From Armillaria gallica (lineage: Eukaryota > Basidiomycota > Agaricomycetes > Agaricales > Physalacriaceae), in NCBI GenBank assembly GCA_037576215.1, contig JBANDB010000006.1, positions 5,270,001-5,334,000 on the forward strand: 64,000 nt of DNA, in the 5' to 3' direction. Below are positions 1-63,125 of the stretch, piece after piece. Every line of letters begins with the position of its first letter. Position 1 is the first letter of the stretch. The position numbers and the translations under genes are program-made. The notes beneath the pieces are model-generated. The model was not told the DNA's origin. It made no database searches and saw nothing but the letters and a program-made list of their open reading frames with translations.

Positions 1-3000
1 CTCTATTTGCCTGTGTTTCCATTCGGCGCGCTTGCCGCCGGCAAGTTAATCTGCTTTGACAAATCCGAAAAATAAATCTCGAATCTGCTTATGGCAATGC
101 AGCGCTCACGCAGCTGCGAATCGGGATCAACGCTTCAGAGGAGGCACTAATCGAGTTGCCAGAATACCTGATAAATGCAGGGTGATTTTTATTTATGCCA
201 AAGTTCTCTGGTATCTCATCAATCGATTCCTACCTCAGTGACGAGTGTTCCCGGACCTTGGTAGATTAATCTGGATTGAATTTTCTTGATGCTGATTCAG
301 AGTCCACAGAGAAATCTTTTTAGATGTTGTCATACGTACCAACGAACAAGCGCCATACAATAATAGCACAATGTCACGACATATTTTACAGCCAATGGTT
401 GCACTAAGTTCCACAGCAACACAACCCTACTGGTGGAAGATACGTGAATGTGATTTAGAACACAACAGCATAGTATGATGACTTCAACAGCTCCTATTTC
501 CGTCCCTGATGAACTACTATGAATTTGGTATGTCGCATGTCATGAATAACTGGAGCATCAGTTAGTCAAGAAAGTTCGGGAAAGCTATAATGGTGGTAAC
601 ATGTAGTAAGTACCCTTCCAAAGAAAGCTTTTCCATGCAAGGAGGCCATCACACCCAGTGCCTAAATTTGTCGGAATAGCTGTCTTTATCACGGCATCGC
701 AACTCACAATCTGATCAAACATTGTGCGAACAAACGATTCAAATTTCCAAAGGGAGGTGCGCTTTCAACGAAAGCAAAACTTGTTGGTGATGGTTTGCGT
801 AGCACCAAGTAGTCCCGAAATGCGTCCAGTTGACTCAATTGCTAAGTTCGGCCTCGGCTTTCATATTATCCTCTACAGCAAATAACGGTTCATTCCGATC
901 GTGGATCCAAGGTTTTCCAAGTCGAGATTGACCCTCCTCAACGGGATAGGTAATTCTTGGAAAACTACTGATACCGGATCTCCGCATATGTATTAAACGC
1001 CAACTTCCACGAAATCCACAGAAGCCGGGGTGTAAAGAGTCGGACTACCCACGGAAATGAGAGTTTCCGACCATGCGAGCCGCACTCAGCGTGGAAACGC
1101 ATGACCGAATCCGGCCAATTGGATTTATCCCCTCCCTGGCCGACATTTCGGAGTTTCTCCTGTCGGTCATCGTTGCTGTATAGGACGTTGAGCGCGGGGG
1201 AAACACCGCGTTTTTCTTCCCCCAAGCCTGGACTCTGATGTACAGCCTATAGAGTTGTGTCTTCAATTCGGCTCTTGTCAAGGTTCAGCCACATCCGCTT
1301 TTACGGTACGTTTGCGTAATCATCTACTAGGGCCACCTACGAATGCAATGCTTAGGAAATTTGCGGATCATGCGGTTTAACGTCGAAAATGCACTTGTCT
1401 GCGAAAATGTCTTTCTCCGAGCATTTATGGGGTGTTTACTCGGGTGTGTGTCCAATTGGCAGGTGCTATTCATTATTAAATCATATATAGAGTAAGTGTG
1501 CTACGAAGTCCATTCGTAGGTATATCACGGCGCTGGCTTATGTTGGTTGTCCCCCGCCCGCATGGCCTGTTTTTGAAATCATTGCTGCGAGCAGCGGCAT
1601 TTCTGGGCAACTTGAAGTAGGTCTCACCATTTCTTACGCTGACTCTTAATGCGCTGTTATCGCGGACCTTCTCAGCATCATCTTGTGACTCCTCCATGAC
1701 TATTCTATCCACGATCTTCATATGTCAATCTGCTGTGCCTTGACTGGATTCCTGTCGATCCACCCTGACCTGAAAGTGACGATATTGACGGTCTCTATAG
1801 ACGCCTTAGGCTGGTGGCACCCTACTGTTCGCTCGTGGAAAGAGTCGTAATATCTCTCGTCAACTGGTTCATATCCTCTTGATAACTCCAACGGGGAATC
1901 TTATTCTTTGTTCATTCTTGGTGATCCGGAGTCTAAGCGTCCGACGTCACTCCTACTTAACGTACTTTACATGGCGCATGTCTCCTCTCACTGTGACCCA
2001 TATGTCTCTGAAACGGCGACCAAAAGATTTAAGCCTGGCGATGTGTCGTATGCCGCGGATTGCTATCAAGAGCTTGGTCTTCTGAAATAGAATTCTTTAT
2101 AGGAGGTGGGTGATCACAGTGCTCTCCACATGCAGCTGACGTGTAATCATTGAATGATTTTTACCTGAATGCCATACTAGCGATGCGAGCACGAGTCAGG
2201 ATGCTCCGATTAACACTACGTATCGTCGCCGACGTCGACGACTCGATGGCTGCTGTCGTTCTCGATATCAACTTCCACACAGGCTCCTATAGTTCGCTTA
2301 CGACCGGTCGGCCATGACTCATTCTTGTCGGTTCAAAGGCGCACAATTCGGATTTGATGTTCCTAAATCTCACCGCGCTGCCCATTAAGACACCTTGGGG
2401 TCGGCGCCACGGATGAAAGCTTTCTCCGTAATCCCGATCTTATTGAATACTTCCAACAAGACTGTACATCCCCAACTTCAAAACCGGTCTAGATATTAGG
2501 TACTCTGCGGTGCTTGCTGAACGTTGACCCATGCAGGGTGCGGGAAGCGAATACGTACTTATGCCTTTTGGACAGCCAGCTAGTATGGGTTACGACTCGA
2601 ATTGACTGATGAGAACAAACTCCACACCCGGCCTAAAAGAACAGAACTTGATCTTTTGAACAGACTATACATCCACTATTCCAATTCGTTAGTAACGGCA
2701 GCAGATGTGTCGCAAAGCGTCGATAACCAAACAGATCAAGCGCTGTGATGAGACTGATACGTGCAAGAAAGGACGAAACAGCAGCGAGGTGTTTGTACGG
2801 CAGATCAACAGGGACATAAGGCTCGTTTCCAGTATACACTCTTAGCGCGGCTCATCCCTCTGTTTACCCTACACCAGGACCAGGTGGACGATGCCGGCAT
2901 AACAGTAGTATGGAGAACACAAAGTCATGTCGGAGCATAACGTTCGTTCTCCACCGATGAGAATCCGGCGTACTTTGCAGCGACCCGTGCTTCCAGGCGC

Positions 3001-3316
3001 TTCTAAGTTCTGTAGTGATGTTCTTGACGTAAAAATTGCTTGCTGCATATCTACGAAGTTGTGGAAGGGTGCCGATGAGAACGGTAACAGACGGTAGCAT
3101 CAAATGAAAGTAATGAATGTCGAGAACTCTGAAAAATGAAGCTTCATCGAAGCAGTCGTTGACCTTCGCGGCTGGCCCCCGGTAAATTTGAGAGGAAAGA
3201 TGACATCAGCGGCCACGCGACTTCCGAATCGTATCCATGTTCGAGCAGGACGTCGTCGTACCATCGGTTAATACAGTTTCCTTTCTTCTGCTCTTTCCAC
3301 CACCATCTCGGTCGCC
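1..3316. other. No recognisable gene
   Basis: Only short open frames (under 90 codons) occur here on either strand. None shows a recognisable domain, and I could not join them through plausible GT..AG introns into a familiar protein. No long repeat, tRNA or LTR was seen. It could hold part of a fast-evolving gene or old decayed sequence. Confidence 0.5.
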
Positions 3317-6300
3317 ATGGTCGCGCAGCAGACAATCAAGGAAAAGGCGGCGACGTGGCTGAGGGCGACCTTCAAGTCCAGAAGGACCGTCAAGACTTGG
3401 ATTCGATGCTGCATTTCGCTCGCCATTTCGTTGATCTACCTCTGTGCTACCGAAACTTCGAATGCTGAGGGACAGGCGGCGTTCTTTGCTTCGTGCGTTT
3501 CGGTTTTCATTTTACGCTGATGTTCGACAATTTGTTTCCTAGGATCCTGGCAGTTATGCTACCGCCGTCGTTCGCGCTATCGATGTTTGTGTTTGCATCG
3601 GCTACGCTCATAATAGGTTTTTAGCCTTTTTCTTGCTCGTGGATCCACCTAACAGCGGCTAGGTATGCTTTTCGGTTGGGCGTGGGGCTGCGCCGCCATG
3701 GCTTCTGCTCTTTCGGTTCGTGACCAGGCTCGATTGGCGCGGCAAGTTCAGGCTCTCGGGGCTTCGTTGGTTCTTTGCAGTCATTGTATCCAAGTTTAGG
3801 CTCATTTTATGCCTACAGCGGCACTCCTCCTACGGCAATTCAATACCAAAGCGCCATTTTCCACGGCCTGTTTCTTGATCCTCGGTCAGCGGTCTCATTC
3901 ATATCTGCACCTTCCGCTCAACTTTATTGTGCAGGTCTTCGGCCGTCTTCGGTGCTTTCTTCTTCATTGGGACCTTCTTTCTGTCCACCGTTGTGGCATA
4001 CAGACCGAAGCTCGCCCTTTTCAGTATATTCGGCACCATTGTCCTGGATGTCATGTGTGTCTATGGTCCCAGTTAGTTGATAATCATAATCATTCTACGC
4101 GTCGGATTCAATCAATTGCCTGTAGCTTTTCCGGTGCCTCAGTATACTCTCGCCAAATTGTTCCTAATTCCTAGCGGCTTTTATCTCGCAACTGCCATCG
4201 CATGCCTCATCTTCATTTTCCCGGAATCTTTGAATCATGTTTGGCTGTGAGTATTATATATCAAAGCCATTTATCTATTAAATCTTGGTATGTAGGAGTT
4301 TGCTTGGTGACGGCATGCTTAAAGTTTGTTTTCCAATTTATCTCGTCTTCACATTCCTTACCTAACCGCGTCTATATAGCCCGTCCTTGATATCATCGAT
4401 CTTCAGGCTGAAACCTTGCAGGCGAATGCCTCGGACCACGAGGCAATGGAAGCCCTGATTCAGCGAGGGAAAGCGTACCGTGCCTTAGTAGTCGCAGGAT
4501 TTCAAGGCCTGCAGGGCCAAATTGGCCTCATTGATCTCGAGAGCTCGATGGGAAGGCTAGGCGCTGCAGATTTGAAGCAGGTGAACAAGGAATTAAAGAC
4601 GTTGACGAACCGGACAGCGTGAGCATTTTTTTGATGTGTGATAGGGGTTGATATTCACACTCAATCACAGTGGATTATTAGCGTTCCAGACGGCAGTAGA
4701 CGATTTGCTTGTTGCACATGCCAAAGCTGGTAATGATGGAGATCCGAAGTCTAACGCAGCAACCATGAACCGATCAATCTTGCTATTGCGCGATATGAGG
4801 GCTCGCGAAATGAAGCATGGCCATGACCTAGAGACCTTGGTCCCATTACTGTCTAATGCGTCCAAGACCCTTAACGGTGACTGTTCGGAAACTGTCAAGG
4901 TCATCACGTTGTGGTTCCAAGACTGCAATAGTGCAAGGTGGACGTGGTTGTTCAGTAAGCCATCTCCCGAGAAGATCCAACAAAGGCAGCAGGGTCTGGT
5001 TGATCAGTTGAATGTTATCAAGAAATCATTGGACCACTTCCGTAACGTCGAACGTGTTCAGCTCATCAAGCCATTTGAGCAATTTTTCGATCCAGTCACC
5101 GGTCGACCACTTGCCTCAGTTGAGGAAAATGCGGGTAACTCGGGTTTCTCTGTGAGGTGCGTGGTTACCAGACGTGCCTGGATGCTTTGTTCATGCTCAT
5201 CAATACTGATTGGGGTATTTGTTACTCTTAAAGGTCGCTGTTCATATGTTTCGTGTTCTGTGATACTTTGGAGGCCTTTGCGGATTCCCTAATCAAGCTC
5301 CTGACCCTGATTGTCTATCTTGATGATAAGCGGCCGAAGTCTAGGCTGTGGATGCCCATAGGATTCGGGAGTGTGGGGGGCAGAGCAAAAGGGACCGTCG
5401 GAACAAATAAGAATGTTTCGCCCTTCGCAATGGGGGCGCCCACAGATCCGTTCAAATTTGACGAGAGCCTAGCCGAGTCTCAGGATACGTTGAAGGCTGA
5501 AGGCGAGAAAGCTGAAATGGAGCCAGGGGTGTTCCGACATGGTCAGTTGATATTTTCCCTGATGAGGCTGATTGATACCGATGATTGCATATGTGTAGCT
5601 CGAGATCCTGATGCACTTCCACCCAAATCTGCACTTGGGAAGTTCTCTCTCAAGCTAGCCTCGGCTGTCAGGTTTTTCTGGTCTCCCCAGGGCGTCTATG
5701 CGACGAGATATGCCCTTGTGTCTATAGCGCTCTGGATTCCGTCCGTTTGTTTCTCGAGTTCATGGTTCGTGTATCAGTATCGAGGACTTTGGGCGCTGAT
5801 TATGGCTCAGGTGAATTTACTTTACCTTGTCCTTGTTTCTTTCTGTTCACTACTGTATACTGATATATGGTCATCGATAGATCGGTCTAGCCGTATTTGC
5901 GGGAGATCAGGTATGTTCCATGTTTTATGAACGGGGGTTGAAGTTATTCTGATTGCTTTGTCCAGATATATAGCTACGGCGTTCGATTAATCGGGACTGG
6001 CATTGGTTTGCTCAGTAAGCTCATCGGTTCTGGTTTAGTTCTTTGTTGATGTAGGAAATAGATGGTCTTGTGGCGTGGTATATCGGTGCTGCCCGAGGGA
6101 ATGGTAACCCCTACGGTGTCGTTATAATCACGGTGCGTGTTTCTCGTCTCTGTCTTATTGGGTATGCTAACTCAAACCCTTAACTTCGAATGTAGACAGC
6201 CTTGACTGCGCCCTTCATGTTAAAGAGCATCACATGTCGTCCCAGTGACAAAGCCTTCTGGAGTATGATCGGAGTAACAACTGTATTCGGTGAGCCAAGA

Positions 6301-38912: not shown

Positions 38913-41900
38913 ATGCAAGCATCATCTCAACCTCTTACTCAGTCTCCAAGTACGGTGGCGTCGGATCGATCTGCGATCCTTACGCCTCCAAATCTCGCTC
39001 CTGATGATACGGACTGGATCTCAAACGCCGTCTCGTTTTCAAGGTGCTTGCTGGTGCGGGTGAACTCGATCCCTCGAACATCGCAAAGACAATTGCGAAT
39101 ATTGCTCTCCCAATCTTGGAGCTGGCTCAGGTGCGAATCTAGGTCCCTGTACAACCATAATGCATGCTAAAAGACTTGTGTCATTCAGGATAATAAGAAA
39201 GCTCGTGGTGAGGTCAAGGATACTATCAAGTACCTCGACGAGATGCTCCGCTCTGTCTCCGAAGAGATCAAGGTACTTCAGGAAGGCGGATCCCCAATGG
39301 ATGCTTCAACTCGCCCGCTGGTGCGTCTACAGCAAATGGGTGACGAATTCATCAGGTCCTTCTCTCCCTTTGGTCTTGTTACGAGTAAGAGGACTGATTT
39401 CTGCCATCATCAGTCACCTCAAGGTTTTGAAGGATGATTTGAACAAGATCTATGGGAAGTCTGGGTTCCGGGCGATGATAAAGAGACCATTCCAGAGCAA
39501 GGCTATCCTGGATTGTATTGATCAGCATAAGGTGTATGTCAAGGAGGCTCGAGACAAGTTTGTTGTATGTTTTCACTGCTGATTCATGAGAGATGTATTG
39601 ATCTTGACCAAGGAAACTGCTGTTTTCTCTGTGATTGGGCAGGTTAAAGAGGTTGATGCAAAGGTTACTGTCATTTATGATCATGTGGTAAATATTCTCA
39701 TTAGTGTTCCATCAATGTATGCTAACATTCTCATAGATGAGTCCTTCCAAGATTCAACCTGTCAAGTATGTCTCTATATATTCTCCAAAGTATAAAAGTT
39801 CTTATAATAGTCCACTGATTAGCAGTGTTATGCCTCTGCTGTTCCTCCACCAGCTCCATCTGTTTTTTAGGTAGAGATGACTTAGTCCAAGAAGGCATAG
39901 CCAATCTTCTTGCAGACTCTCCTAGTTCCATCATTATTATGGGATTTGGTGGCATGGGCAAAACATCTCTAGCCTTGAAAATACTGAATGATGAAGCTGT
40001 ACAGGCCAAATATGAGGCTCAAAGATACTTTATTCCTTGTGATATAGTCTGCAATGTTGAGCCTACTATGGAAGCTTTATTGCAGACTGTGATAAAGTTA
40101 ATAAAGTTGGAATTTACAAGTGATGCAGTGAAACAGCTGCATACTATATCTAAACCAACAATTTTGATTTTGATAACTTTGAGACTCTTTGGAACAATAG
40201 TGAAGATCAATATAGAATTCAAATGATTTTGGAGCAGTTGAATTCTATCAAACAGATTACTTTGGTGATTACAATAAGAGGAACTGTTGCTCCAACTGAT
40301 AATATTGATTGGTTAATACTACCACATAATGGTCTATCATCATTAGATGAGTCTATATCATTGGACATCTTTAGTACTATCTCGAGACATGCTATTGATG
40401 AAAAAGCAGTCAAAGAACTAGTAAAGGAATTAGATGGATGGCCATTAGCTATCATGTTGATGGCTTGCCAAGCAAAAACTCTTGCTCCAAAGACACTTCT
40501 TAAGAGCTGGCATAAAGAGAAAACTTTATTATTAGAAAAACCTGGAGCTCAATCTCATGATTATCAAGTGTTGATATTTCAATCAAAATTACACTTCAAT
40601 CATCATTGCTTTCATTGAAACCAAATACATTGAAGCTGTTAAGTGTAATGTGTTATTTGCCTGATGGAATTCCAACATGGGATAGTTTAATATATAAAAT
40701 ACTACCAAAGATTTCTGAACAAAGTTCAATCATATTAAGATTATTACAATCTGGAATTATATATCAGGATAACAAGGAAGGGTTGAAATTATTATCACCT
40801 ATTCAGGAATATCTTAAGACATATTTTCTAAAGCCAGATACAGATATAAAAAATCAAATTTGCCTCTTCTATATAGGTGAAATAAATAATGATAGCTTCA
40901 AATATCCAAGTTTAGGAGATAAGACAAAATTTGGTGTTTTACATTCTAAGAATATTGAATGGATATCATATAGGCTTCTAGATAATGATATCAGTGAAAA
41001 ACATTTGACAACAATTTATAACTTCTGTCATTTTCAATATACAATCTGGGATTCAGATGGACTATTGAGAAAAGTAATATCTGTAGCAAAACAGAAAAAT
41101 ATGCAAAATTTATATGCATCTGCACTGCTCTTGTTAAGCAAAAGGTATTGGCTAATTGATCAAAACAAGTTAGCACTAGAATATATAGATGAAGCTATGC
41201 AGATTTTTAAAAATATTGGAGACACTCTTGGAGTAGCACAGTGTTTGCAAAGTTTGGGAGAGATTTTGAGAATGTCAGATCAATACTCAGAAGCAACTGC
41301 CAAGCTGGAGAAAGCTATGCAGATGTTTGAAGACATTGGAGATTCTCTTGGGACAGCACAGTGTTTGCAAAGCTTGGGAGATATTTTGAGAATGTCAGAT
41401 CAATACTCAGAAGCAACTGCCAAGCTGGAGAAAGCTATGCAGATGTTTGAAGACATTGGAGATTCTCTTGGGACAGCACAGTGTTTGCAAAGGTTGGGAG
41501 AAATTTTGAGAATGTCATATCAATACTCAGAAGCAACTGCCAAGCTGGAGAAAGCTATGCAGATGTTTGAAGACATTGGATATTCTCTTGGGATAGCACA
41601 GTGTTTGCAAAGCTTGGGAGATATTTTGAGAATGTCAGATCAATACTCAGAAGCAACTGCCAAGCTGGAGAAAGCTATGCAGATGTTTGAAAACATTGGA
41701 CATTCTCTTGGGATAGCACAGTGTTTGCAAAGCTTGGGAGATATTTTGCGAATGTCAGATCAATACTCAGAAGCAACTGCTAAGCTGGAGAAAGCTATGC
41801 AGATATTTGAAGACATTGGAGATTCTCTTGGGACAGCACAGTGTTTGCAAAGCTTGGGAGGTATTTTGCGAATGTCAAATCAATACTCAGAAGCAACTGC

Positions 41901-42100
41901 TAAGCTGGAGAAAGCTATGCAGATATTTGAAGACATTGGAGATTCTCTTGGGACAGCACAGTGTTTGCAAAGCTTGAGAAATATTTTGTAAATGTCAAAT
42001 CAATACTCAAAAGCAACTATCAAATTAGAGGAAGCTATGCAGATGTTTGAAGACATTGGACATTTTTATGAGGCAGCATAGTGTTTGCATAGTCGGAGCC
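38913..42100 (+). pseudogene. NLR-like NB-ARC/TPR protein gene with frameshifts
   Basis: The ATG at 38913 (MQASSQPLTQSPSTVASD) leads to a helical N-terminal region (KVLAGAGELDPSNIAKTIAN, VKDTIKYLDEMLRSVSEEI) like the four-helix-bundle effector domains of fungal NLRs. Then comes an NB-ARC region: FLGRDDLVQEGIANLL, the P-loop IIIMGFGGMGKTSLALKIL, a Walker B strand, LKLLSVMCYLPDGIPTW, and C-terminal TPRs. Reading frame breaks by one base near 39033, near 40165 in the Walker B segment and near 40570. The TPR frame stops at 41989-41991 while repeats continue to about 42090. STAND proteins of this type act in fungal self/non-self recognition and cell death. From about 39.56 kb on the gene is AT-rich and nearly free of CpG. 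Unrecognised introns could explain part of the frame changes, but the pattern fits a pseudogene. Confidence 0.7.
41209..42090 (+). repeat. 120-bp-period TPR repeat array
   Basis: At least seven units of 120 bp (40 residues; QCLQSLGDILRMSDQYSEAT then AKLEKAMQMFEDIGDSL) run in phase from about 41209. Most units differ by only a few bases; later units read ATATTTGAAG and GCGAATG in place of ATGTTTGAAG and GAGAATG. An eighth, clearly diverged unit lies at about 42000-42090. Spacing and the A-x-x-L/Y pattern fit tetratricopeptide repeats. The near identity shows recent expansion or gene conversion. Confidence 0.88.
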
Positions 42101-43579
42101 TTTTACAAGTGTCAGATGTCAGACCTGTGTTGGAGACATACCAAATAGATAAAGTGTAAGGACTCTTTGACTTATTGTATGATATAAATAGACACTCTTA
42201 TCTCTCAGTATGATTTACAGACTTTACAGACTCTTTCTAAGTAGTTAATAACTCATGCAACTCATTGTAGTTAAGATTAGATATCTGACTCATGATTATG
42301 CAGACTTGACTTATACTTGTAGAGGTATATAAAGCTTGTAAGGCTGATACAATCAACTCTTTTTTTCAACTCTATACTTGTGCACCCTTATAATTTTAAA
42401 CCTGTGTCAGGCTAGAGGGAGCACTAACTTGGTTTTGTTAAAACACCAGCCATTTCAAGTTATTCAAGCCTGTATCTTTGGACATTGCCAGCTAAATCTT
42501 TTAGGGATTATCTGCCTTAATTAGCCATATACTGTATCATTTTAACCATAAATTCAGCCAGGGTGAGATATTAGGACTTATGTGGAAGTTTATTCAGTCA
42601 ACCAAGTTCAGCTCCAGATGATCATTATTGGCTTAGTATATTGTTTGGATAACAAAATTAGACAAAAGAGACTCTTAAATCATCTTGAGGACCACCAAAT
42701 ACTTTTGGAGATTTTTGCACATGTATAGTTAAAAATAGCACTTTTTGAAATGTTAGTTCAGACCCCCTTGTTAGGCATTATGATACATGAATTTGGTTCA
42801 GTTTGAGGGAGTCTATTAGATGTTAGATGAACTTATAGTTGAAATGATACAGTAAACAAGACCTTTTAGATGTTACTAGTCTTGACCAGCTATTCACACC
42901 ACTATCCTAATCAATTGATACTTTGTCTGTTAAGACTTATGGGAGTGGTCTCAATTGAATCGTAAAAGCTGTGAAATGGGTTACATTAATCTTAGTTAGA
43001 ATCAGCACACTTCAAGTTCTGAGATCTACAAGAGAGTATTCATAATGATCTTGTGCCAATGAAGGATGTCAGTGGTGTCTTAGTTCTATAAGTAGCTTAG
43101 ATAACTACAAGAGTGAACAGGATAAGATGAGCATACTAGTTGAGTACACTTTTAATACTTTACAAGACTGTTTTAATTCAACTTCAAGTCACATTTTCCT
43201 CTGGTCTGAAACAGGTCCAATTTTTAAGGTAGGCACAGTTAGAGAGGTAGAAAAGTAAGTAATTATTTCTTAGCTATCTAGCTACTTATATAGTACACTA
43301 CTGAGTCATGGTTAGTGTTGCTGTGGCATGGCTAAATATGGTGTGCAGGCCGAGCCAAGCCACAATAAGCCTAGCCAAGCTGTAAATTTAGCTCATGGCT
43401 AAAAACAGCTTGGAGCTGAGTTTAAGCTGGTGCACATGGCTCATGCTTGGCTTCACCATGGCTGAATACCAAGTTAGGACAGCGAATGTGTTATCTCCTT
43501 TCTTCTTCTTTTCTTCATTGTCATACTCCCATCCATCATCTATACAATGTGGAATCCCTTTCATTATTCTGTAGCCTTG
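42101..43579. other. AT-rich noncoding DNA, CpG-depleted
   Basis: No open frame of note. CpG is almost absent. At 43320-43470 a cluster of AGCCA and TGGCT words in both orientations resembles subterminal transposon repeats. The left target duplication (CCTTG, 43575-43579) of the gypsy element ends the region. Confidence 0.5.
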
Positions 43580-43934: not shown

Positions 43935-43975
43935 ATTAGCTGAAAGCTTCCCTAGGCTCCTTAATCAGAGCCTTC

Positions 43976-45006
43976 ATGACGAACACAGCAACCAACATCA
44001 TTTTCAGAACTTCCATAGGCATAGGCAGTGCCCACTTGGCAGCCACAGTTATTCTCGCAGTATGACAATGTAGGGGACAAGCCCAACCCATTACAATCAA
44101 CCAAATTGTAAACCCCCCCCCATCCCCAACAATGGCATCCCACTCCAGCAGCAGCCATCCATCGTCACACCCATACCGCAATGACTGATCCCGATCCACA
44201 ACTTCGCTGGAGTCAACTTGGAAGAGGTCTCTTCTGAGTTGACTCCTCCCATCATCCCAGAAAGAAGGCCTTCTACCCCTCCCTAAAGGTGCGAGCCTAT
44301 CATCATCATCACCCCCACCAGTTCTGCTGACTCTGCCCCATATGCCCCTCAATCTCTCACACCCAGCAACTACGCCTGTCTTGCAGAGCGAAATGCAGCA
44401 GATGAGGCAGCAAGGGGACTCGAAGTGGGCCGAGACACCAGACCCGTCTCCCCCCTCAGTGCCCACAGCTATGATCCTTGGGCTCACAGGGACCACGCTA
44501 CAACACCAGCAGCCCTGATTACCCCCAACAAGTTTTGGGACAATCTTACCATTCCATACAGTGCCTACTTCCCCTCCAACAGTGGCTCCCCTGATCACAG
44601 AACCCCTCCCCCGACTGGCTACAGGCATGTCCAGTTCTGGGACCAGCCCATACCGGCCCAGCAGCAGGCACTCAAGCCTGTACCAATCATTGAGGAACCC
44701 ATCGCTGGTCCCTCCTGTCCCAGGAGCCATGGTCCCTTTGGCCATGCCTACTGGCGAAACATCGACGAGCAGCATCTCGCACCCCCACGCCTCCGGTCCG
44801 TTCAGGAGATCAACAATGACACCCTTAGGTACCGTGTTGATGAGCACGGGGAGACCATTCAGCTGAGCAAGGGAAGCGACACTGCCACCGAAGGACTCCC
44901 TGAGGTGGAGTATATTGACGGCATCCACAGAAGTTCACCTGAGTCGTTCGACATCCCGACACTCCATGCAACCAACCCTGACGCTCCCAGCAATGACACT
45001 TTCTAA
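43976..45006 (+). pseudogene. ORF0 remnant of gypsy copy 1
   Basis: Starts MTNTATNIIFRTSIGIGSAH, matching the membrane-anchor start of the intact ORF0 at 54512. It is broken by TGA right after VILAV, then is open from 44425 with GRDTRPV, FWDNLTIPYSAYFPS and EEPIAGPSCPRS. It ends TAA at 45004-45006, at the same place relative to gag as in the intact copy. It overlaps gag in another frame. Confidence 0.65.
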
Positions 45007-53950: not shown

Positions 53951-54018
53951 GTATGTGCTGTAGTTTAAACTTTCTTTGTCTATCATCCTCAATGTTACGA
54001 TTTATTCATTTTTTCCTA

Positions 54019-54053
54019 CATCTTATCTTATCTCGGGGAGATAAGATAAGATG
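54019..54053. promoter_or_regulatory. GATA-site palindrome in LTR U3
   Basis: CATCTTATCTTATCTC, a GGG spacer, then its exact reverse complement, giving several AGATAAG sites on each strand. The 3' LTR has the same structure at 62670-62704 with an AGG spacer. AGATAA is the core bound by fungal GATA-family zinc-finger factors (nitrogen or siderophore control). Function is inferred. Confidence 0.6.
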
Positions 54054-54267
54054 ACTCACCACTTGCCTTAGATCCGCGACTCCCGGGGAGTCTTCATAAA
54101 TCTTCACATCGCTAACACGTCACACTCGGTCGACGTGTACGCGACACGTACTCAATATGACTTAACACGTCTTGAGCACGTCTTATTCTCGGCTATCGTG
54201 TATTTGGCTTATTCACTTTCTAACACGGTAGCCTCATCTTAGTACCTTTTACGAACCTTGACTTTAG

Positions 54268-54275
54268 TATATAAG
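54268..54275 (+). promoter_or_regulatory. LTR TATA box
   Basis: TATATAAG about 33 bp upstream of CCCTAGCTTTGAG, the likely 5' end of the retroelement RNA. The same TATATAAGTAG occurs in gypsy copy 1 and in the solo LTR at 63600. Confidence 0.65.
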
Positions 54276-54470
54276 TAGCTTACTCAAAGCCTGTATTTCC
54301 CTAGCTTTGAGCTAAAGTTTATTCATACCAAATACTCTCCACTTCCCCACTACGCGGCGAGCTCCTAAAGTAAGTCTTGAGCACCAATCATCCACAAGGG
54401 CTAGACGGTGACTGTACGAACGCGATACAGCTGATCTATTCACCTTTTGGTTGGGGTTCGGGTCTAACAA

Positions 54471-54482
54471 TTAGCTCAAAGC
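54471..54482 (+). other. Primer-binding site, self-priming type
   Basis: TTAGCTCAAAGC two bases after the 5' LTR is the exact complement of GCTTTGAGCTAA at 54304-54315. It does not look like a tRNA 3' end. Tf1/sushi chromoviruses prime reverse transcription with the folded 5' end of their own RNA, and this arrangement matches. Confidence 0.7.
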
Positions 54483-54511
54483 TTCTTTACTGATTCTGCC
54501 TCAGAACCCTC

Positions 54512-55459
54512 ATGGAGAACGACGACGCTCAGATTATAGCAATCGCACTAGGAATACCAAGCGCCACTCTCGTTTCCATCGCCCTCATTCTTGCAGTCAG
54601 GTTCCGCTATAGGACAAGACAACTACAGCTCCAACGACAAGAAGAGGCGCACCGTACCTCCCCCTCAGTCATCACCGATAATACCAATGGCATCCCGCTC
54701 GAGCAGCAGCCACCCCGACTCTTCGCACCCATACCACGCCGACCGATCCCAATCCACCAGTTCCCTGGACAGCGAGTCAACGAGGAGGCGGTCGACATTT
54801 CTGAGTCGACTACTACCGCGGACCCGGAGGGAAGCTCTATTACCCCTCCCAGAAGGAGACCGGCTGAGGTCGACATCACCTCCGAACATCCCGCTGCCTA
54901 CTATGCCTCACTTGTCCCTCGAACTCCCCCAACCGGCGGACACCCCCAAGCCAATCACGGAAGAAGGAGATACAACGTGGGCCGCAACACCCGACCCGTC
55001 GCGACCACCAATACTCCAGCACCCGCAACCAATGTCGTTACCAGCGAGTTCTGGGATAATCTCGACATCCCCTACAGCGCCTATTTCCCCGCAACCACCC
55101 GTGACACGCCTATCCAGACCAGCCAGTCGCCACTCGAGCCTGTACAGATCAGTGAACCCGTCGCCGGCCCCTCAAACCCCAGGCGCAGTGGCTGGCGAGC
55201 ACAGCCTCGAAGGTCCCCGCTTCGACCCCCTCGAGCAAGTGCTTGGGAGCAGCTCCAGCAGCGATTCAGGGAGCGACCACAGCCACCGCCCGAGCTCACG
55301 CGTCCACCAGAGGAGCTCAGTGGATCGACCATCGTCGGTCACCCGACACGCCCCTCGACCCCTTACCCAAGGCTCACAGTCGACGCAATCCCTGAGTCGA
55401 CCTCCGAGCAGACGCGCGAGCAGTCGCCCTACTACCCCAGCGATGATGACACTAACTGA
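54512..55459 (+). CDS. ORF0: predicted single-span membrane protein overlapping gag
   Basis: A 315-codon frame starting 43 bp after the LTR. Residues about 8-28 (IIAIALGIPSATLVSIALIL) form a hydrophobic helix followed by a basic stretch (RFRYRTRQ), so a membrane anchor with the remainder in the cytosol is likely. The remainder is proline- and arginine-rich. It overlaps gag by 773 bp in a different frame and ends TGA just after the ATGATGACACTAAC of gag. The dead copy keeps matching segments in the same frame (FWDN..IPYSAYFP; EP(I/V)AGPS), so the frame is probably real. No known domain recognised; it is not a usual gypsy gene. Confidence 0.6.
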   Translation: MENDDAQIIAIALGIPSATLVSIALILAVRFRYRTRQLQLQRQEEAHRTSPSVITDNTNGIPLEQQPPRLFAPIPRRPIPIHQFPGQRVNEEAVDISESTTTADPEGSSITPPRRRPAEVDITSEHPAAYYASLVPRTPPTGGHPQANHGRRRYNVGRNTRPVATTNTPAPATNVVTSEFWDNLDIPYSAYFPATTRDTPIQTSQSPLEPVQISEPVAGPSNPRRSGWRAQPRRSPLRPPRASAWEQLQQRFRERPQPPPELTRPPEELSGSTIVGHPTRPSTPYPRLTVDAIPESTSEQTREQSPYYPSDDDTN

Positions 55460-56912
55460 TGCCATCAACTTCTACAATCAAACAGACGATGACCCCACAG
55501 TCCCTACTCCCGCTATATTAAGGCAAGCGACCTTTTTGAACATTTATAACTATTTCGCTTTCGAGTTACCATTTTCCCGAATCTGGGGGGAAACCCCAGC
55601 CGGGAATGATTATTTTATGAAGAAGAACCGAGGACTACTGGCAGACGAGATCCTGCAGTATGAGGCGGAGCGGAATGCTCGCGCCTTATGGAATAGTGTC
55701 CACCCAGACGCCACGATCGAGGAATGGCCCAATTATGAAGAAGCCGCATTGGAAATCGAGATCCAGGAACCCATGCCAGATGAGCCCCCAGTAGCGCCTC
55801 CCCGAGTCACTAACACCTTTGCCTATGCCACAAGAATGGTGGTACCAGGGACGTACACGCCCGGGTACCTACCATTCGCCGGGGCTAACGGAGCTGGTGG
55901 AGGCGGTGGAGGCGGCGGGCAACCCGCACAGCCACCTCCCGCACCACCAGTACGGGTAATGCTCCCGCGATTCCCAGCACCGCCAAACATGCCGGACCCG
56001 CCCATACCTTGGGAATTGCAAGCTGGAGCGATAGCCCCCTACGACGACTTCAAGCCAAAAATCCTAAGAGAAGTCGACGATTTCTCAGGGGACTCAGACG
56101 ACATCGCTCGCTTCTTCCTGAAGTGCGAGCTGCACTTCGAAGTCTTTAACCGGCACTTCCGCCAACACCCACACCGAGTCGTCTTCTGTGTTTCCCGACT
56201 CGCAGGAGAGGCCGAAAGGTGGTGGCAGCTATGCGCCAAAGTCATAGGAAAGACAGCAGAAGGCGAGCAAAAGTATCCAACCTACGATGAGTTCCAGACG
56301 GAACTCAACGACAGGTTTTGGAAGGATGCTGACTCGCAGATCAAGTACGCGCAGTGGGAAAGGCTGAAGCAGTCGGAGCACAAAGACGGCGACAGGTTCT
56401 TCCAGCTATTCGAAGAGCTAGCCTACTTTGCCGGGGTACAAAACAATGATCAGGTAATGCTCCACCAGATCAAGAAGGCCGCCCGTCAATCAAGCAAGAA
56501 CACGATATACTCATCAGACGGTGATGTGCCGGTTGACTACCCTGCATGGAAAGCTCGACTCCTCCGGATAGATCTCAATTGGCGCCTCAAACAGGCAGAA
56601 GGAACGACAGGACTGCCACGACCACAGTTTCAGAAGACGACCGCGCCTGTACAGGGCGGTCAAACCAGGGCCCCCGCACCGACAACTAGAACGGTGACGG
56701 GGACAACTTACGGAGGGCGTGGACAACCGATGAATATCGACGTTGCCACGGCGGACACGGTATGTTTCGGATGTGGCAAGAAAGGCCACTTCAGGCGAGA
56801 CTGCCCTACCGCGCCCAGAACCCGAGCTGAGTCTTTGCGACGCGCAAATACTTACTGGGACAGAAAGGAGGGCCTCTCAACAATTGAAGAAGTAAAAGAA
56901 GGCGCCGTCTAG
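54687..56912 (+). CDS. gag: Gag polyprotein of gypsy copy 2
   Basis: 741 codons from ATG 54687 (MASRSSSSHPDSSHPY). The frame is open further upstream but lacks an ATG. It begins with about 250 serine/proline/arginine-rich residues. From MMTLTDAINFYNQ (55443) a globular capsid-like region follows, interrupted by a glycine/proline-rich linker around residues 398-420. A CCHC zinc knuckle CFGCGKKGHFRRDC lies at about residues 693-706. It should form the particle and bind the RNA. The first 257 codons share DNA with ORF0. An alternative start at the 55443/55446 ATG would overlap the ORF0 stop and suggest reinitiation. The stop is TAG 56910-56912. Confidence 0.85.
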   Translation: MASRSSSSHPDSSHPYHADRSQSTSSLDSESTRRRSTFLSRLLPRTRREALLPLPEGDRLRSTSPPNIPLPTMPHLSLELPQPADTPKPITEEGDTTWAATPDPSRPPILQHPQPMSLPASSGIISTSPTAPISPQPPVTRLSRPASRHSSLYRSVNPSPAPQTPGAVAGEHSLEGPRFDPLEQVLGSSSSSDSGSDHSHRPSSRVHQRSSVDRPSSVTRHAPRPLTQGSQSTQSLSRPPSRRASSRPTTPAMMTLTDAINFYNQTDDDPTVPTPAILRQATFLNIYNYFAFELPFSRIWGETPAGNDYFMKKNRGLLADEILQYEAERNARALWNSVHPDATIEEWPNYEEAALEIEIQEPMPDEPPVAPPRVTNTFAYATRMVVPGTYTPGYLPFAGANGAGGGGGGGGQPAQPPPAPPVRVMLPRFPAPPNMPDPPIPWELQAGAIAPYDDFKPKILREVDDFSGDSDDIARFFLKCELHFEVFNRHFRQHPHRVVFCVSRLAGEAERWWQLCAKVIGKTAEGEQKYPTYDEFQTELNDRFWKDADSQIKYAQWERLKQSEHKDGDRFFQLFEELAYFAGVQNNDQVMLHQIKKAARQSSKNTIYSSDGDVPVDYPAWKARLLRIDLNWRLKQAEGTTGLPRPQFQKTTAPVQGGQTRAPAPTTRTVTGTTYGGRGQPMNIDVATADTVCFGCGKKGHFRRDCPTAPRTRAESLRRANTYWDRKEGLSTIEEVKEGAV

Positions 56913-57492: not shown

Positions 57493-60400
57493 ATGACAGC
57501 AACGGAGACCAGCTCCCGCAACACTGGACAAGCTGAGGACGACCACAAAGGCGACTCAGGATCTACGCCTAACGAAGCGAATAAAGCTAAGTGCAACACA
57601 GTTGACTTAGGATCTAGGGTGGCAAGGGACGACAAAGATCGCGACGCCACATTACGAAGCATAGACAAGACGAGGGACGCAAGGGTCTATTTGCTCCCCG
57701 TCCTGAAGAACCAAGAGGACGAACCGGAGTCGGGTAAGTGCCCCCGATCAGTTGCCAACGCCTATCGAGACGTAGGGCGACCCGACGAAGGGGGAACACC
57801 GAATGAAACGAGGATCCCGGTCATCACAGAGACGGGCTCGGAGGGACCAGGAGAAGGCGACTGCTACCCAACGGTGAGAAGCGTAGGCAATCGTTGTGCA
57901 GCAGTGTCAGCCCAACCCGTCGCCCCATCACGGGGGGACTCCTTCGCAGAAAGCTACTCCTGTTCCACGACCGACCAGAAAGCCGCAGGTTCGGAAGCTG
58001 CTAGCGCCCAGGCAGTGCAAAGGGGGCATCAGGTAGCTTTTATTGAAGTACCTGACGACGAGGACATTACCAGTTTCACGACGAACAAGAACGCTAAATT
58101 AACCCCTTTAGACTTAGAAAATGCGGTGACCTCACCGACGGTAGTCGCGCCCGTATGGGGCGACGCGAAGGTTGAAGAGGCCCCACAACTGTCCCGAACC
58201 TATACAAAGGGACAGACCTATAGAGAATGGCTTAGACCATTCGGAGCGGAATGGACTCTACGAGGCGTAGTACAAGCGCGCACGGAGTCAGAAGCGAAAG
58301 CAATCCTCAAGAACTGGATTCACAAAACGCGCACAGGAGAGGTTGTCAACTCAATGATCGAAGCAATGAGGGGGATGAAGCGAATCGATGCGCTCTGGTG
58401 GCTTCACGAGCTACAAGAGCCAAAACGACTTATCAGCGCATTGAGCAATAAAGGAAAAGACCTAGTGATCCCCGTCACTTTCGGGGCTCCAGGAACAATT
58501 TCCAATATCTCCACCATCGCGTTGGTAGACAGCGGATGCACCAGTAGCGCTATCAATCGAAGATTCGTCAAACAACATAAAATCCCAACTCGACCAACAG
58601 CCGCTCCAATCCCAGTCTATAATGCCGACGGAACCAAGAACTCGGGAGGATCAATCACCGAATATGCCGAGATCGAACTCAAGATCGGGGATCATTCTGA
58701 ACGAATAGATCTAGCCATAACAGATCTCGGTGATAAAGAGATCTTCCTTGGTCACGATTGGTTAGCCCAGCATAATCCGATCATCAATTGGAAGACTGGA
58801 AGATTAACGTTTGCACGGTGCGAATGCCGTAAAAATCCATTCACGTTACCTGACGCGGATCCCGATGACAAATGGGACGAGGAACTGGAAGAAGGGGACA
58901 CCATCCTTGCAATAGATTTTACGAAGGCTATCCTCGTACGCGCGCATCACGCCAATGACTTAGCCGCCGCGGCCAACGCAGACAAAGAGACTAAAACGTT
59001 CGAAGAAATGGTCCCAGAATGGTGTCAGGATTTCAACGATCTGTTCGACAAAAACAGCTTCGATGAACTTCCTGACCCAAAGACGTGGGACCATGCCATC
59101 AAACTTACTCCAAATGCGAGCGCCAATCTAGACTGCAAGGTATACCCTTTGAACCGGAACGAACAAGCAGAACTCGATAAGTTCTTAGACGAGAACCTCT
59201 CGAGTGGACGAATACGACCATCCAAGTCACCCATGGCTTCACCGTTCTTCTTTGTTAAAAAGAAAGATGGCAAGCTACGACCAGTCCAGGATTATAGGAA
59301 GCTCAATGAGATGACGATTAAAAACCGTTATCCGCTCCCTTTAATCTCAGAACTAATGGACAAGTTGCGGGGGGCCAAGTATTTTTCCAAGCTTGACGTC
59401 CGATGGGGATACAACAATGTGCGCATCAAAAGTGGCGACGAGTGGAAAGCCACGTTCAGGACTAACCGCGGGTTGTTCGAACCCACGGTTATGTTCTTCG
59501 GGCTCACCAACTCGCCTGCCACCTTCCAGTGGATGATGAATGATATTTTCAAAAATCTCATTGCATCAGGCGCCGTCACTGTTTACCTCGACGACATCCT
59601 TATCATGTCCAAGACCAAGGAAGAACATCGCCGCATCACGCGCGAGGTTCTGAGACTTCTCCGTCAAAACAAGCTCTTCCTTAAAGCAGAGAAGTGCGAG
59701 TTCGAAACCCTGGAAACGGAGTACTTAGGAGTCATCATCAGTGAGGGGAACATCTGCATGGATCCAATCAAGATCGCAGGAATCGCAGAATGGCCTGTAC
59801 CAACAAAGAAAGTACAGCTCCAGTCATTTTTAGGCTTTACCAACTTCTACCGACGTTTCATCAAAGGATACAGCAAGGTCGTCAAGCCGATGACCCAGCT
59901 GACAGGAAACGATCCGTGGAAATGGGGAAAAGCCCAACAAGACGCTTTCGAAGAGTTAAAAAGACTATTAGCCGAAGAGGTGGTATTGGCAATACCCACC
60001 GATGGCGGAAAATTCCGCATAGAAGCAGATGCAAGTGAGGGAGCGATAGGTGCGGTATTGACGCAGGAGCAGGATGGAAAATGGCGCCCGGTCGCATTTT
60101 TATCCAAATCCCTCACCACAACAGAACGAAATTACGAAATTTATGACAAAGAGCTGCTCGCGATAATGATCGCGCTCGACGAGTGGAGGCACTATCTGAT
60201 GGGCGCGGCTCAGGATTTTGAAATATGGACGGACCACCAAAACCTCCAGTATTTCCGAAAACCCCAGAAACTCAACCGGCGACAAGCACGGTGGGTAACT
60301 GAGCTGGCCGAATATCACTTCACGCTTCACCACAAATCAGGAACCGCAAACAAGAAAGCCGACTTACTTAGTCACAGAGCAGATCACGAGCAAGGAAAGG

Positions 60401-62085
60401 AGGACAACGATGAGGTTATCGTCCTCAAACCCGAGCATTTCCGGGCCCTAGTCATGCCCACTATCGAGGAAACCCATTCCAAGATAAAGCAAGCCACGCT
60501 CGACCACCGTCGATGGGACAAGAACATTGCGACCTCCCTAAACCACGACCGAGGACTGAAAATGAATGACGGGTTAATCTATTACGATTCCCGCATTTAC
60601 GTTCCTTCCAACCATGCGTTACGAGGCGAGATTGTCTCGCAAGTTCACGACCACATCACGGTGGGACACCCCGGCATAGAGAAGACTAAGGAACTCGTCT
60701 TACGGGAATATTGGTGGCCCAGGATGAAAAAAGACATAGAGGACTATGTCCGCGGCTGCGAAACGTGCCAACGAACGAAATCGAGCACTCAAGCAAAAGC
60801 AGCACCGCTACATCCCAACACGATACCCTCCCGACCCTGGACTCATATCTCCGTCGACATGGTAACTGGTTTACCAAAGAGCCAAGGCTTCGACGCGATC
60901 CTAATGATCGTCGATCGCTTCTCTAAGGAAATCATACCAGTCGCATGCACAACGGAGATGTCATCGGAAGGGTGGGCCAAAATCCTACGAGACCAAGTTT
61001 ACGCCAAACATGGGATGCCACAGGTCGTTATCAGCGACCGAGGCACCATGTTTGTATCCAAGTTCATGAAAGACCTTTATGACTTGCTCCAGATCAAGGC
61101 AAACGCATCCACCGCCTACCACCCACAAACTGACGGACAGACTGAGCGAGTGAATCAGGAGGTTGAAAAATACCTCCGGATCTTCGTCAATCACCGCCAG
61201 AATGACTGGGTGGAATGGCTCTCTCTTGCGGCTTTCGCTCACAATAACCGCACCCATTCCGCAACGGGTAAAAGTCCCTTCGAGGTTACCCATGGCTATA
61301 TCGTCGAGGTCCTCCCTGGTGCCGTACGACCCCAAGCACCCTTCAGAACACCGGCCTCAAACACCTTTGTTTCAGATATGCAGAAAATCCATGCCGAGGC
61401 AAAGCAAGCACTCGAGAAAGCCACCGACCAGATGAAAGCCCAATATGACAAAAAGAAAAGACCTGCAGTTGATTACTCGGTGGGAGACGAAGTGTGGCTC
61501 GATACGAGCAATCTGGCACTCCCACGTCCGAAGAAAAAACTTGCAGACAAAAAAACGGGCCCCTTCCCTATCATCGCCAAGATCGGAGCTTCGGCATACA
61601 AATTAAAACTCCCCATAGGCTGGCGTATCCATCCAGTATTCAACGAATCACTCCTAACACCCTATACGCCACCCGCATTCCCTAACCAGGAACAGCCGCC
61701 TCCGCCACCACCCGATCTTATTGACGGGGAGGAGCACTATGAAATCGAGCAGGTTCTCGAGCATAGAGACCGAAAGGTCCGAGGAAAGGCTGGCAACCCA
61801 TGGCGCTGGACTACAGACTATCTCGTTAAATGGAAAGGATATGGACCCGAATCCAACAGCTGGGTAAAGGAAAACGACATGGATGCCGACGAACTAGTCG
61901 ACAAATACCTCGCAGAAAAAGTGAACCGCACCAGACAAGAGACAGGAGATTGGCAGTCCTATACGGATCCATTCACTGGTCAAAAAATCTGGTACGACCA
62001 AGCACTCGACTGGGATTGGTTTGGTGGCAACGACGACCCCTCGACAGGCTCGAAATCGTCGTACGAAGCAACAGAAATCCCATAA
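57493..62085 (+). CDS. pol: Pol polyprotein: protease, RT, RNase H, integrase, chromodomain, WW-like tail
   Basis: 1,530 codons from ATG 57493; the frame is open and conserved further upstream (GIATAKPPLVKE at about 57412), so the true beginning may be a fusion. Order: aspartic protease with VDSGCTSS (Asp about 346) and FLGHDWL; reverse transcriptase with KLNEMT, SPATFQW and YLDDILI (about 698); RNase H starting IEADASEGAIG and including DKELLAI; integrase zinc region H-x-H..C-x2-C (about 1050-1090) and DDE core (VDMVTGLP, VISDRGTMFVSKF, QTERVNQEVE); chromodomain YEIEQVLEHR..DYLVKWKGYGPESNSW (about 1415-1460); then a WW-like module, DWQSYTDPFTGQKIWYDQ (from about 1486). Chromodomain integrases bias insertion to marked chromatin. 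No lesion visible. Confidence 0.93.
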   Translation: MTATETSSRNTGQAEDDHKGDSGSTPNEANKAKCNTVDLGSRVARDDKDRDATLRSIDKTRDARVYLLPVLKNQEDEPESGKCPRSVANAYRDVGRPDEGGTPNETRIPVITETGSEGPGEGDCYPTVRSVGNRCAAVSAQPVAPSRGDSFAESYSCSTTDQKAAGSEAASAQAVQRGHQVAFIEVPDDEDITSFTTNKNAKLTPLDLENAVTSPTVVAPVWGDAKVEEAPQLSRTYTKGQTYREWLRPFGAEWTLRGVVQARTESEAKAILKNWIHKTRTGEVVNSMIEAMRGMKRIDALWWLHELQEPKRLISALSNKGKDLVIPVTFGAPGTISNISTIALVDSGCTSSAINRRFVKQHKIPTRPTAAPIPVYNADGTKNSGGSITEYAEIELKIGDHSERIDLAITDLGDKEIFLGHDWLAQHNPIINWKTGRLTFARCECRKNPFTLPDADPDDKWDEELEEGDTILAIDFTKAILVRAHHANDLAAAANADKETKTFEEMVPEWCQDFNDLFDKNSFDELPDPKTWDHAIKLTPNASANLDCKVYPLNRNEQAELDKFLDENLSSGRIRPSKSPMASPFFFVKKKDGKLRPVQDYRKLNEMTIKNRYPLPLISELMDKLRGAKYFSKLDVRWGYNNVRIKSGDEWKATFRTNRGLFEPTVMFFGLTNSPATFQWMMNDIFKNLIASGAVTVYLDDILIMSKTKEEHRRITREVLRLLRQNKLFLKAEKCEFETLETEYLGVIISEGNICMDPIKIAGIAEWPVPTKKVQLQSFLGFTNFYRRFIKGYSKVVKPMTQLTGNDPWKWGKAQQDAFEELKRLLAEEVVLAIPTDGGKFRIEADASEGAIGAVLTQEQDGKWRPVAFLSKSLTTTERNYEIYDKELLAIMIALDEWRHYLMGAAQDFEIWTDHQNLQYFRKPQKLNRRQARWVTELAEYHFTLHHKSGTANKKADLLSHRADHEQGKEDNDEVIVLKPEHFRALVMPTIEETHSKIKQATLDHRRWDKNIATSLNHDRGLKMNDGLIYYDSRIYVPSNHALRGEIVSQVHDHITVGHPGIEKTKELVLREYWWPRMKKDIEDYVRGCETCQRTKSSTQAKAAPLHPNTIPSRPWTHISVDMVTGLPKSQGFDAILMIVDRFSKEIIPVACTTEMSSEGWAKILRDQVYAKHGMPQVVISDRGTMFVSKFMKDLYDLLQIKANASTAYHPQTDGQTERVNQEVEKYLRIFVNHRQNDWVEWLSLAAFAHNNRTHSATGKSPFEVTHGYIVEVLPGAVRPQAPFRTPASNTFVSDMQKIHAEAKQALEKATDQMKAQYDKKKRPAVDYSVGDEVWLDTSNLALPRPKKKLADKKTGPFPIIAKIGASAYKLKLPIGWRIHPVFNESLLTPYTPPAFPNQEQPPPPPPDLIDGEEHYEIEQVLEHRDRKVRGKAGNPWRWTTDYLVKWKGYGPESNSWVKENDMDADELVDKYLAEKVNRTRQETGDWQSYTDPFTGQKIWYDQALDWDWFGGNDDPSTGSKSSYEATEIP
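61948..62085 (+). other. WW-like module at the Pol C-terminus
   Basis: After the chromodomain, W1487 is followed by DPFTGQKIWY and a second tryptophan 20 residues after the first. This is the W..DPxTGxxYY..W layout of WW domains, which bind proline-rich peptides. The dead copy keeps it (50872-51009: W, DPRTGKKVWYNQ, W at +20). The final PxW proline of WW domains is not evident, so the assignment is tentative. Confidence 0.45.
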
Positions 62086-62643: not shown

Positions 62644-63120
62644 TGTTACGATTTATTCATTTTTTCCTACATCTTATCTTATCTCAGGGAGATAAGATAA
62701 GATGACTCACCACTTGCCTTAGATCCGCGACTCCCGGGGAGTCTTCATAAATCTTCACATCGCTAACACGTCACACTCGGTCGACGTGTACGCGACACGT
62801 ACTCAATACGACTTAACACGTCTTGAGCACGTCTTATTCTCGGCTACCGTGTATTTGGCTTATTCACTTTCTAACACGGTAGCCTCATCTTAGTACCTTT
62901 TACGAACCTTGACTTTAGTATATAAGTAGCTTACTCAAAGCCTGTATTTCCCTAGCTTTGAGCTAAAGTTTATTCATACCGAATACTCTCCACTTCCCCA
63001 CTACGCGGCGAGCTCCTAAAGTAAGTCTTGAGCACCAATCATCCACAAGGGCTAGACGGTGACTGTACGAACGCGATACAGCCGATCTATTCACCTTTTG
63101 GTTGGGGTTCGGGTCTAACA
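62644..63120 (+). repeat. 3' LTR of gypsy copy 2
   Basis: 477 bp, the same length as the 5' LTR, five substitutions by eye. It includes the GATA palindrome at 62670-62704. Confidence 0.95.
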
Positions 63121-63125
63121 CTCAA

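Follow-up and report, generated by a model that had tools for sequence, protein, structure and literature searches.

Evidence for a second gene, encoding a predicted membrane anchor, overlapping the start of gag in an Armillaria gallica chromovirus

We analyzed a 64,000-nt stretch of Armillaria gallica DNA (here called the window) in which a Ty3/gypsy chromovirus carries an additional frame, ORF0, across the beginning of gag. In our reading, ORF0 is probably a second gene lying over the gag start, with selection acting on both frames and with a product, a predicted single-pass anchor, that would likely tether Gag particles to a membrane of the cell. Sequence evidence strongly supports true dual coding of the ORF0/gag overlap, which the original prediction had proposed; it comes from diversity by codon position, dN/dS-type ratios, the avoidance of stops and comparison with other genomes. 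The features are collected in Table 1.

Table 1. Features of the element and of an older relative (window coordinates)
Feature	Position	Strand	Basis
Decayed ORF0/gag region of older related element	43976..45006	+	tblastn; stops in both frames
5' LTR (477 nt)	53993..54469	+	5 mismatches in 477 against the 3' LTR, ungapped
TATA-like box in 5' LTR	54268..54275	+	Motif scan, motif match only; 244 nt 5' of ORF0 ATG in the window copy
Stretch near predicted RNA 5' end, complementary to predicted primer-binding site	54303..54315	+	13-nt exact complement
Predicted self-priming primer-binding site	54471..54483	+	Exact complement of 54303-54315; adjoins 5' LTR end
ORF0, 315 codons, ATG start	54512..55459	+	Open frame; first AUG past TATA-like box (window copy); constrained as protein
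Predicted transmembrane segment of ORF0 (residues 8-29)	54533..54598	+	Hydropathy, AlphaFold2 helices, database relatives
Basic juxtamembrane segment of ORF0 (residues 30-37)	54599..54622	+	Sequence; net charge +3 C-terminal versus -3 N-terminal (window copy)
Dual-coded overlap, ORF0/gag N-terminus	54687..55459	+	773 nt; selection on both frames
gag (741 codons from ATG 54687)	54687..56912	+	Pfam; start common to database gag proteins
Conserved WDNxxIPxSAYxP motif of ORF0 (residues 181-193)	55052..55090	+	Alignment of 22 sequences
pol: protease, RT, RNase H, integrase, chromodomain	57493..62085	+	Pfam
3' LTR	62644..63120	+	Comparison with 5' LTR

The element is a Ty3/gypsy chromovirus, as judged by its pol architecture and by LTRs with a target-site duplication. 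The duplication is a 5-nt direct repeat, CTCAA, flanking both LTRs (53988-53992 and 63121-63125). Pfam domains in the pol frame follow the order protease (333-425), RT (588-749), RNase H (840-941), integrase (1113-1211) and chromodomain (1416-1473); by this architecture the element is a chromovirus. In gag, zf-CCHC scored above its cut-off, and Retrotrans_gag, Ty3_capsid and others scored below theirs. The 13-nt complementarity between the LTR and the stretch next to its end predicts self-primed reverse transcription, which is a trait of Tf1-type elements. Such complementarity, 12 to 15 nt long, was present in 66 of 69 copies.

The 315-codon frame lies close to the 5' LTR, as first read, its ATG starting at the 43rd base after the LTR end. 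The 773-nt overlap with gag was likewise confirmed; the gag ATG is located 175 nt 3' of the ORF0 ATG, in the +1 phase. The encoded protein opens with a short acidic stretch, followed by a hydrophobic segment, then a basic flank and finally a proline/arginine-rich tail; overall, it contains 14.9% proline and 10.8% arginine. A hydrophobic helix followed by basic residues had been proposed for its start, and we found a hydrophobic stretch at residues 8 to 26 (Kyte-Doolittle 19-mer, 2.39) with the basic flank next to it. In all five copies examined, the hydrophobic window begins at residue 7 or 8, and the 20 residues past the 19-residue window carry a net charge of +3 to +4. Because an acidic N-flank combined with a basic C-flank predicts an N-out/C-in orientation, ORF0 is predicted to be a single-pass protein of this topology. 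AlphaFold2 placed helices at residues 4 to 12 and 17 to 48, with pLDDT values over 90 only at about residues 21 to 40; the model is poor overall (mean pLDDT, 54) and mostly unfolded at low confidence.

Searches with ORF0 returned no Pfam family, no meaningful chain in the PDB (best match, E = 1.2) and no relative among viral contigs. In a motif scan, neither P[ST]AP nor PPxY was found in ORF0 of 27 copies. PxxPxR was present in the tail of 26 of these 27, a raw count for a tail that is itself very proline-rich. The myristoylation motif MGxxxS/T is absent from the ORF0 N-terminus: printed copies start with ME, and nearly all printed relatives start with ME or MD. On the gag side, PTAP, a tetrapeptide with the form of a retroviral late domain, occurs at residues 129 to 132 (window 55071-55082), in the part of the N-terminus that lies within the overlap. 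P[ST]AP was found within gag residues 1 to 300 in 15 of 27 copies, compared to 11% of residue shuffles (ten copies), and PTAP or PSAP lies near the same place in 2 of 5 printed database gag proteins.

The genome (86 Mb, 28 contigs) was searched for further copies. Seventy were retrieved, 69 of which were readable from the ORF0 start. We scored ORF0 as intact when 290 to 370 codons were open and gag as intact when 700 codons or more were open. ORF0 was intact in 34 of the 69 copies, comprising 25 of 31 gag-intact copies versus 9 of 38 others (Fisher p = 3e-6); this association is weak on its own, since age alone would couple both frames. Thus, most gag-intact copies keep ORF0, contrary to the outcome named beforehand as counting against dual coding. 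In the six that do not, the first stop is TGA in every case. Both frames were open in 27 copies, whose ORF0 spans 306 to 342 codons. The gag ATG was at the expected place and phase in 68 of the 69 copies with an ORF0 start, the exception being L003, where an indel (within 1501-3900) fuses ORF0 and gag into one 799-codon frame. The genome contains 131 gag matches, the older copies being diverged. Among the matches listed, TGA accounts for most of the stops in older ORF0 copies, a pattern that would be compatible with CGA codons decaying by C-to-T change.

To follow selection along the element, we calculated diversity by codon position from the 27 copies open in both frames over the overlap. With gag in the +1 phase, ORF0 position 1 is gag position 3, and gag position 1 is ORF0 position 2. 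At ORF0 positions 1, 2 and 3, diversity was 0.128, 0.072 and 0.236 in the ORF0-only 5' part, which shows a third-position excess. The corresponding values in the overlap were 0.228, 0.121 and 0.201: diversity was raised at the third positions of both gag (0.228) and ORF0 (0.201), and its minimum (0.121) fell where gag position 1 coincides with ORF0 position 2. In the gag-only part they were 0.296, 0.095 and 0.079, so that diversity was 0.296 at gag position 3 versus 0.079 at gag position 2.

The copies were then aligned and both frames were tested for purifying selection, as the original prediction had suggested. The test yields a ratio, w, that compares changes altering both proteins with changes silent in one frame, stratified into transitions, CpG transitions and transversions. 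Our main sample consisted of 13 disjoint nearest pairs of both-open copies. In the overlap, w(ORF0) was 0.35 (0.27 to 0.47) and w(gag) was 0.30 (0.22 to 0.41); the gag-only control gave 0.90 (0.69 to 1.2) for w(ORF0) and 0.14 for w(gag). When the third frame was put in the place of ORF0, w rose to 2.81. When all 351 pairs were used, a set of non-independent comparisons, w(ORF0) was 0.30 and w(gag) was 0.24 in the overlap, and w(ORF0) was 1.19 in the control. Constraint is therefore not confined to gag.

Constraint is shared out unevenly along the overlap, with gag dominating just past its AUG and ORF0 dominating at positions 639 to 792. With 351 pairs, positions 180 to 333, just past the gag AUG, gave w(gag) of 0.15 and a nonsignificant w(ORF0) of 0.85 (0.38 to 2.45), whereas positions 639 to 792 gave w(ORF0) of 0.07 and a nonsignificant w(gag) of 0.37 (0.09 to 1.37); each frame was nonsignificant in one of five overlap windows. 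With 13 pairs, w(ORF0) was not significantly below 1 in two of six overlap windows (0.62 [0.30 to 1.56] and 0.67 [0.39 to 1.16]), and w(gag) was not significant in one of six (0.51 [0 to 1.96]). The last overlap window gave w(ORF0) of 0.56 (0.40 to 0.78) with 13 pairs and 0.44 (0.22 to 0.90) with 351. The controls set limits to single values. With 13 pairs, w(ORF0) was 0.48 (0.22 to 0.83) in one control window (1326-1592) out of five in gag-only DNA, although ORF0 is absent there; none of the four such windows was below 1 with 351 pairs. Similarly, the ORF0-only part gave an apparent w of 0.44 (0.06 to 1.22; 13 pairs) in the gag phase though gag is absent there, so the difference between ORF0 positions 1 and 2 may contribute to the gag estimate. 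The stronger evidence for gag consists of the w values directly past its AUG and the conserved N-termini of database gag proteins. A gag start downstream of the overlap is disfavoured because w(gag) is strongest just past the AUG (0.16 to 0.20 with 13 pairs; 0.15 with 351 pairs) and because five printed database gag proteins begin at the same residues.

Stop codons were considered separately. Pairs of both-open copies showed 0 stop differences versus 42.5 expected, but these copies had been selected for intactness, and for the gag-only control the calculation gave a twofold excess over the stops seen (38.5 observed, 74.6 expected). For these two reasons, we repeated the test on 15 disjoint pairs chosen for intact gag alone and estimated the rates of stop creation from gag-only DNA. 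Nine ORF0-breaking stops were observed versus 56.7 expected (Poisson p = 5e-15, events treated as independent). Synonymous shuffling of gag codons (2,000 trials for each of 8 copies) left ORF0 open in 0 to 0.1% of trials. Conversely, shuffling ORF0 codons left gag open in 3 to 32%, so that an open gag is not rare given ORF0. Across the 27 both-open copies, the third frame contained 11.2 stops on average. Codon usage, considered for the relative age of the two frames, placed ORF0 nearer to pol (rho 0.61 versus 0.30) and the gag N-terminus nearer to the gag core (0.47 versus 0.38). On the strength of the shuffles, the stop avoidance and the constraint, we rejected a chance-open ORF0.

A profile of six ORF0s searched against a protein database (E ≤ 0.001) returned 54 relatives, 9 of them from Armillaria gallica, the sole organism named. 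A hydrophobic segment is present in 45 of the 54, and in 44 of these 45 the C-flank is the more positive (histidine counted). In an alignment of 22 ORF0 sequences, W181, D182, N183, I186, S189 and P193 are invariant, as are the helix residues L13-G14-I15-P16; the motifs are conserved although identity to the 16 aligned database relatives is 32 to 48%. The overlapped gag N-terminus alone matched seven database proteins at 42 to 60% identity, and the five printed gag relatives start with MASRSSSDHPESSHPYH or nearly so. Four of the 61 relatives were compared with the genome of the window, where their best identities were 63% (P0008, Armillaria gallica), 60% (P0002), 61% (P0020) and 72% (P0056). 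With best matches of no more than 72%, these four come from elsewhere, and we rejected them as products of this genome.

The arrangement also appears to be present in a distant branch. The relatives P0020 (ORF0) and P0056 (gag) share two locations on contig C7, near 658,000 and 810,000, as the sites of their best or second-best matches. At these places the P0020 match begins about 180 nt before the P0056 match and overlaps it on one strand; both copies carry stops. Nineteen of the 61 database relatives match both ORF0 and gag, although the search was unfiltered, so that low complexity could account for weak double matches. In P0032, P0047, P0050 and P0051 the sequence crosses from one protein into the other. 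Such hybrids are expected of indel-bearing copies with both frames in their DNA.

The start codons are arranged in a leaky-scanning layout. In the window copy, no AUG lies between the TATA-like box and that of ORF0. The leader is free of AUGs in 24 of 27 both-open copies, and in 25 of 27 the first AUG to follow that of ORF0, whatever the frame, is that of gag; extra AUGs are commoner among the other copies, many of which are decayed. The AUG-free gap between the two starts is only mildly unexpected (0.81 expected per copy; the copies are related). A pyrimidine occupies position -3 of the ORF0 AUG in 67 of 68 copies and of the gag AUG in 56 of 68, and the context of the gag AUG is not clearly better. 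Upstream, 142 nt 5' of the ORF0 ATG, a splice-donor-like hexamer, GTRAGT, is kept in no fewer than 56 of 69 copies; the LTR end carries the strongly conserved TTACAATTAG/TAACAATTAG. These could mark an intron in the leader, and the GTRAGT site would allow splicing.

According to our model, scanning ribosomes would either start at the ORF0 AUG, with its pyrimidine at -3, or leak on to the gag AUG, and ORF0 would thus be made beside Gag. The acidic N-terminus would face outward. The tail, disordered, rich in proline and about 280 residues long, would lie in the cytosol, where it may bind Gag or a host adaptor. This binding would concentrate Gag particles at a membrane. We infer such tethering from the predicted topology and from the analogy with sORF2 of the MDG1 elements.

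The original prediction had stated that standard Ty3/gypsy elements carry no such gene. This needs a qualifier, since MDG1 elements of Drosophila (412, Mdg1, Stalker) have a short transmembrane sORF2 upstream of gag, according to the accessible part of PMC11952523. There, sORF2 is described as a protein of about 70 aa that is found at the plasma membrane with capsids and functions without an envelope protein, with a class ectodomain of about 30 residues and a myristoylation signal in 4 of 6 (PMC11952523). Like it, ORF0 belongs to an LTR retrotransposon and would encode a small transmembrane protein 5' of gag in which a helix is followed by a basic patch. Unlike it, ORF0 has 306 to 342 codons, about 7 residues before the helix and, in the window, the 773-nt gag overlap; the accessible part of PMC11952523 contains no statement that we met on a gag overlap of sORF2. 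FAST proteins of fusogenic reoviruses share with ORF0 the predicted N-out/C-in helix, the polybasic juxtamembrane segment and a variable tail, and FAST proteins and sORF2 are thought to bring two membranes together (PMC11952523). The traits given for this set include a length of 63 to 200 aa, an ectodomain of about 30 residues with an amphipathic motif and, often, MGxxxS/T (PMC11952523). ORF0 has the predicted single helix with an N-out/C-in bias (hydropathy and charge difference) and the polybasic region, and lacks the length, the ectodomain and the myristoylation motif. It therefore seems to resemble sORF2/FAST in position and predicted topology without being a member.

With fungal chromoviruses the element shares the order PR-RT-RNase H-IN-chromodomain and the predicted self-priming site. 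It differs from them in the extra overlapping frame, none being mentioned in the accessible part of a survey of fungal LTR elements (PMC3248453). Additional genes beside the standard ones, with no assigned function, also occur as 5' ORFs in plant LTR elements, such as Retrosat2 ORF0, for which the accessible part of PMC3485330 states neither a gag overlap nor a helix. In the literature searched (mostly without subscription papers), we found no LTR retrotransposon with a long sense overlap of gag in an alternative frame, and membrane-associated accessory proteins were found for insect elements and not for fungal ones. An accessory membrane ORF 5' of gag is of a known kind; a fungal chromovirus in which such an ORF overlaps gag out of frame did not turn up in that literature.

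A different destination for the anchor is possible, if rather unlikely: ORF0 could retain particles at an internal membrane, either the ER or the nuclear envelope, where they would be assembled or passed on to the nucleus, and have no extracellular role. A single-pass anchor without a cleavable signal suits an internal membrane as well as it does the plasma membrane; on the other side, targeting signals were scanned as simple motifs only. Hyphae fuse and share cytoplasm, which makes doubtful the need for the cell-to-cell transmission factor that ORF0 might otherwise be, one joining two membranes and thereby letting capsids move from one hypha or compartment to another with no envelope. We regard this role as unlikely. 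It has been proposed for MDG1 sORF2 (PMC11952523), with which ORF0 shares the position 5' of gag, the single hydrophobic segment, the basic juxtamembrane patch and the N-out/C-in charges. However, the predicted ectodomain has about 7 residues versus about 30 in FAST/sORF2, the both-open copies exceed the 63 to 200 residues of that set (PMC11952523), and there is no N-terminal glycine for myristoylation. Also unlikely, in our judgment, is the broader proposal that an envelope-free LTR element, present in several mushroom-type fungi, has an overprinted capsid gene whose membrane protein moves particles across cell or nuclear membranes, as an independent, dual-coded counterpart of the insect sORF2/FAST strategy.

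The remaining alternatives concern how ORF0 is read. Glycosylated Gag of gammaretroviruses is a model for a membrane-anchored minor Gag, and ORF0 could supply one if a +1 frameshift or a splicing event linked it to gag. The +1 phase of gag, the single frame in L003, the hybrid database proteins and the donor-like site in the leader are in line with this. Nevertheless, it appears improbable: no +1 shift heptamer of the Ty1 or Ty3 type occurs in the ORF0 frame of 27 copies, the ORF0 tail stays constrained through the last overlap window, and indels in decayed copies explain the hybrids as well. ORF0 might instead be mainly regulatory, an upstream overlapping frame that lowers gag translation and whose protein matters little. 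It does provide the first leader AUG in the window copy, and its long overlap rules out simple reinitiation at gag, but amino-acid constraint over the overlap as a whole and motifs conserved among the 16 relatives are unexpected for an irrelevant peptide, and we consider this explanation very improbable. That gag alone is coding and ORF0 open by chance or base composition is scarcely credible. One of five gag-only control windows did give w(ORF0) below 1, and a single window is no proof; against chance stand the gag-codon shuffles, the deficit of stops (9 versus 57 expected), the contrast of w(ORF0) with its controls (0.35 versus 0.90; 0.30 versus 1.19) and the third-position excess in the ORF0-only part.

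If ORF0 is expressed, the fungal retrotransposon cycle has a membrane step that is missing from current models. With dozens of copies and relatives elsewhere, the overlap also offers a natural case for measuring how constraint is split between two proteins. Where annotation allows a single frame at each locus, ORF0 will have been overlooked or wrongly joined, as the hybrid database proteins suggest.

The window also contains the older, related element listed in Table 1, which had been described as a dead copy keeping the start, several segments and the end point of ORF0 together with a conserved gag frame. Using tblastn, we matched ORF0 residues 59 to 248 at 44131-44811 (37% identity) and the gag N-terminus at 44132-45001 (40%). 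The ATG, the ORF0-like segments and the end point are indeed kept, but the helix has decayed and the later segments are out of frame with the ATG; gag is recognisable but not open. A 330-codon frame on the minus strand (43936-44928), antisense to this decayed region, is probably fortuitous. Nearby, at 41072-42211, lies a tandem array of eight 300-nt matches in register, spaced by 120 nt.
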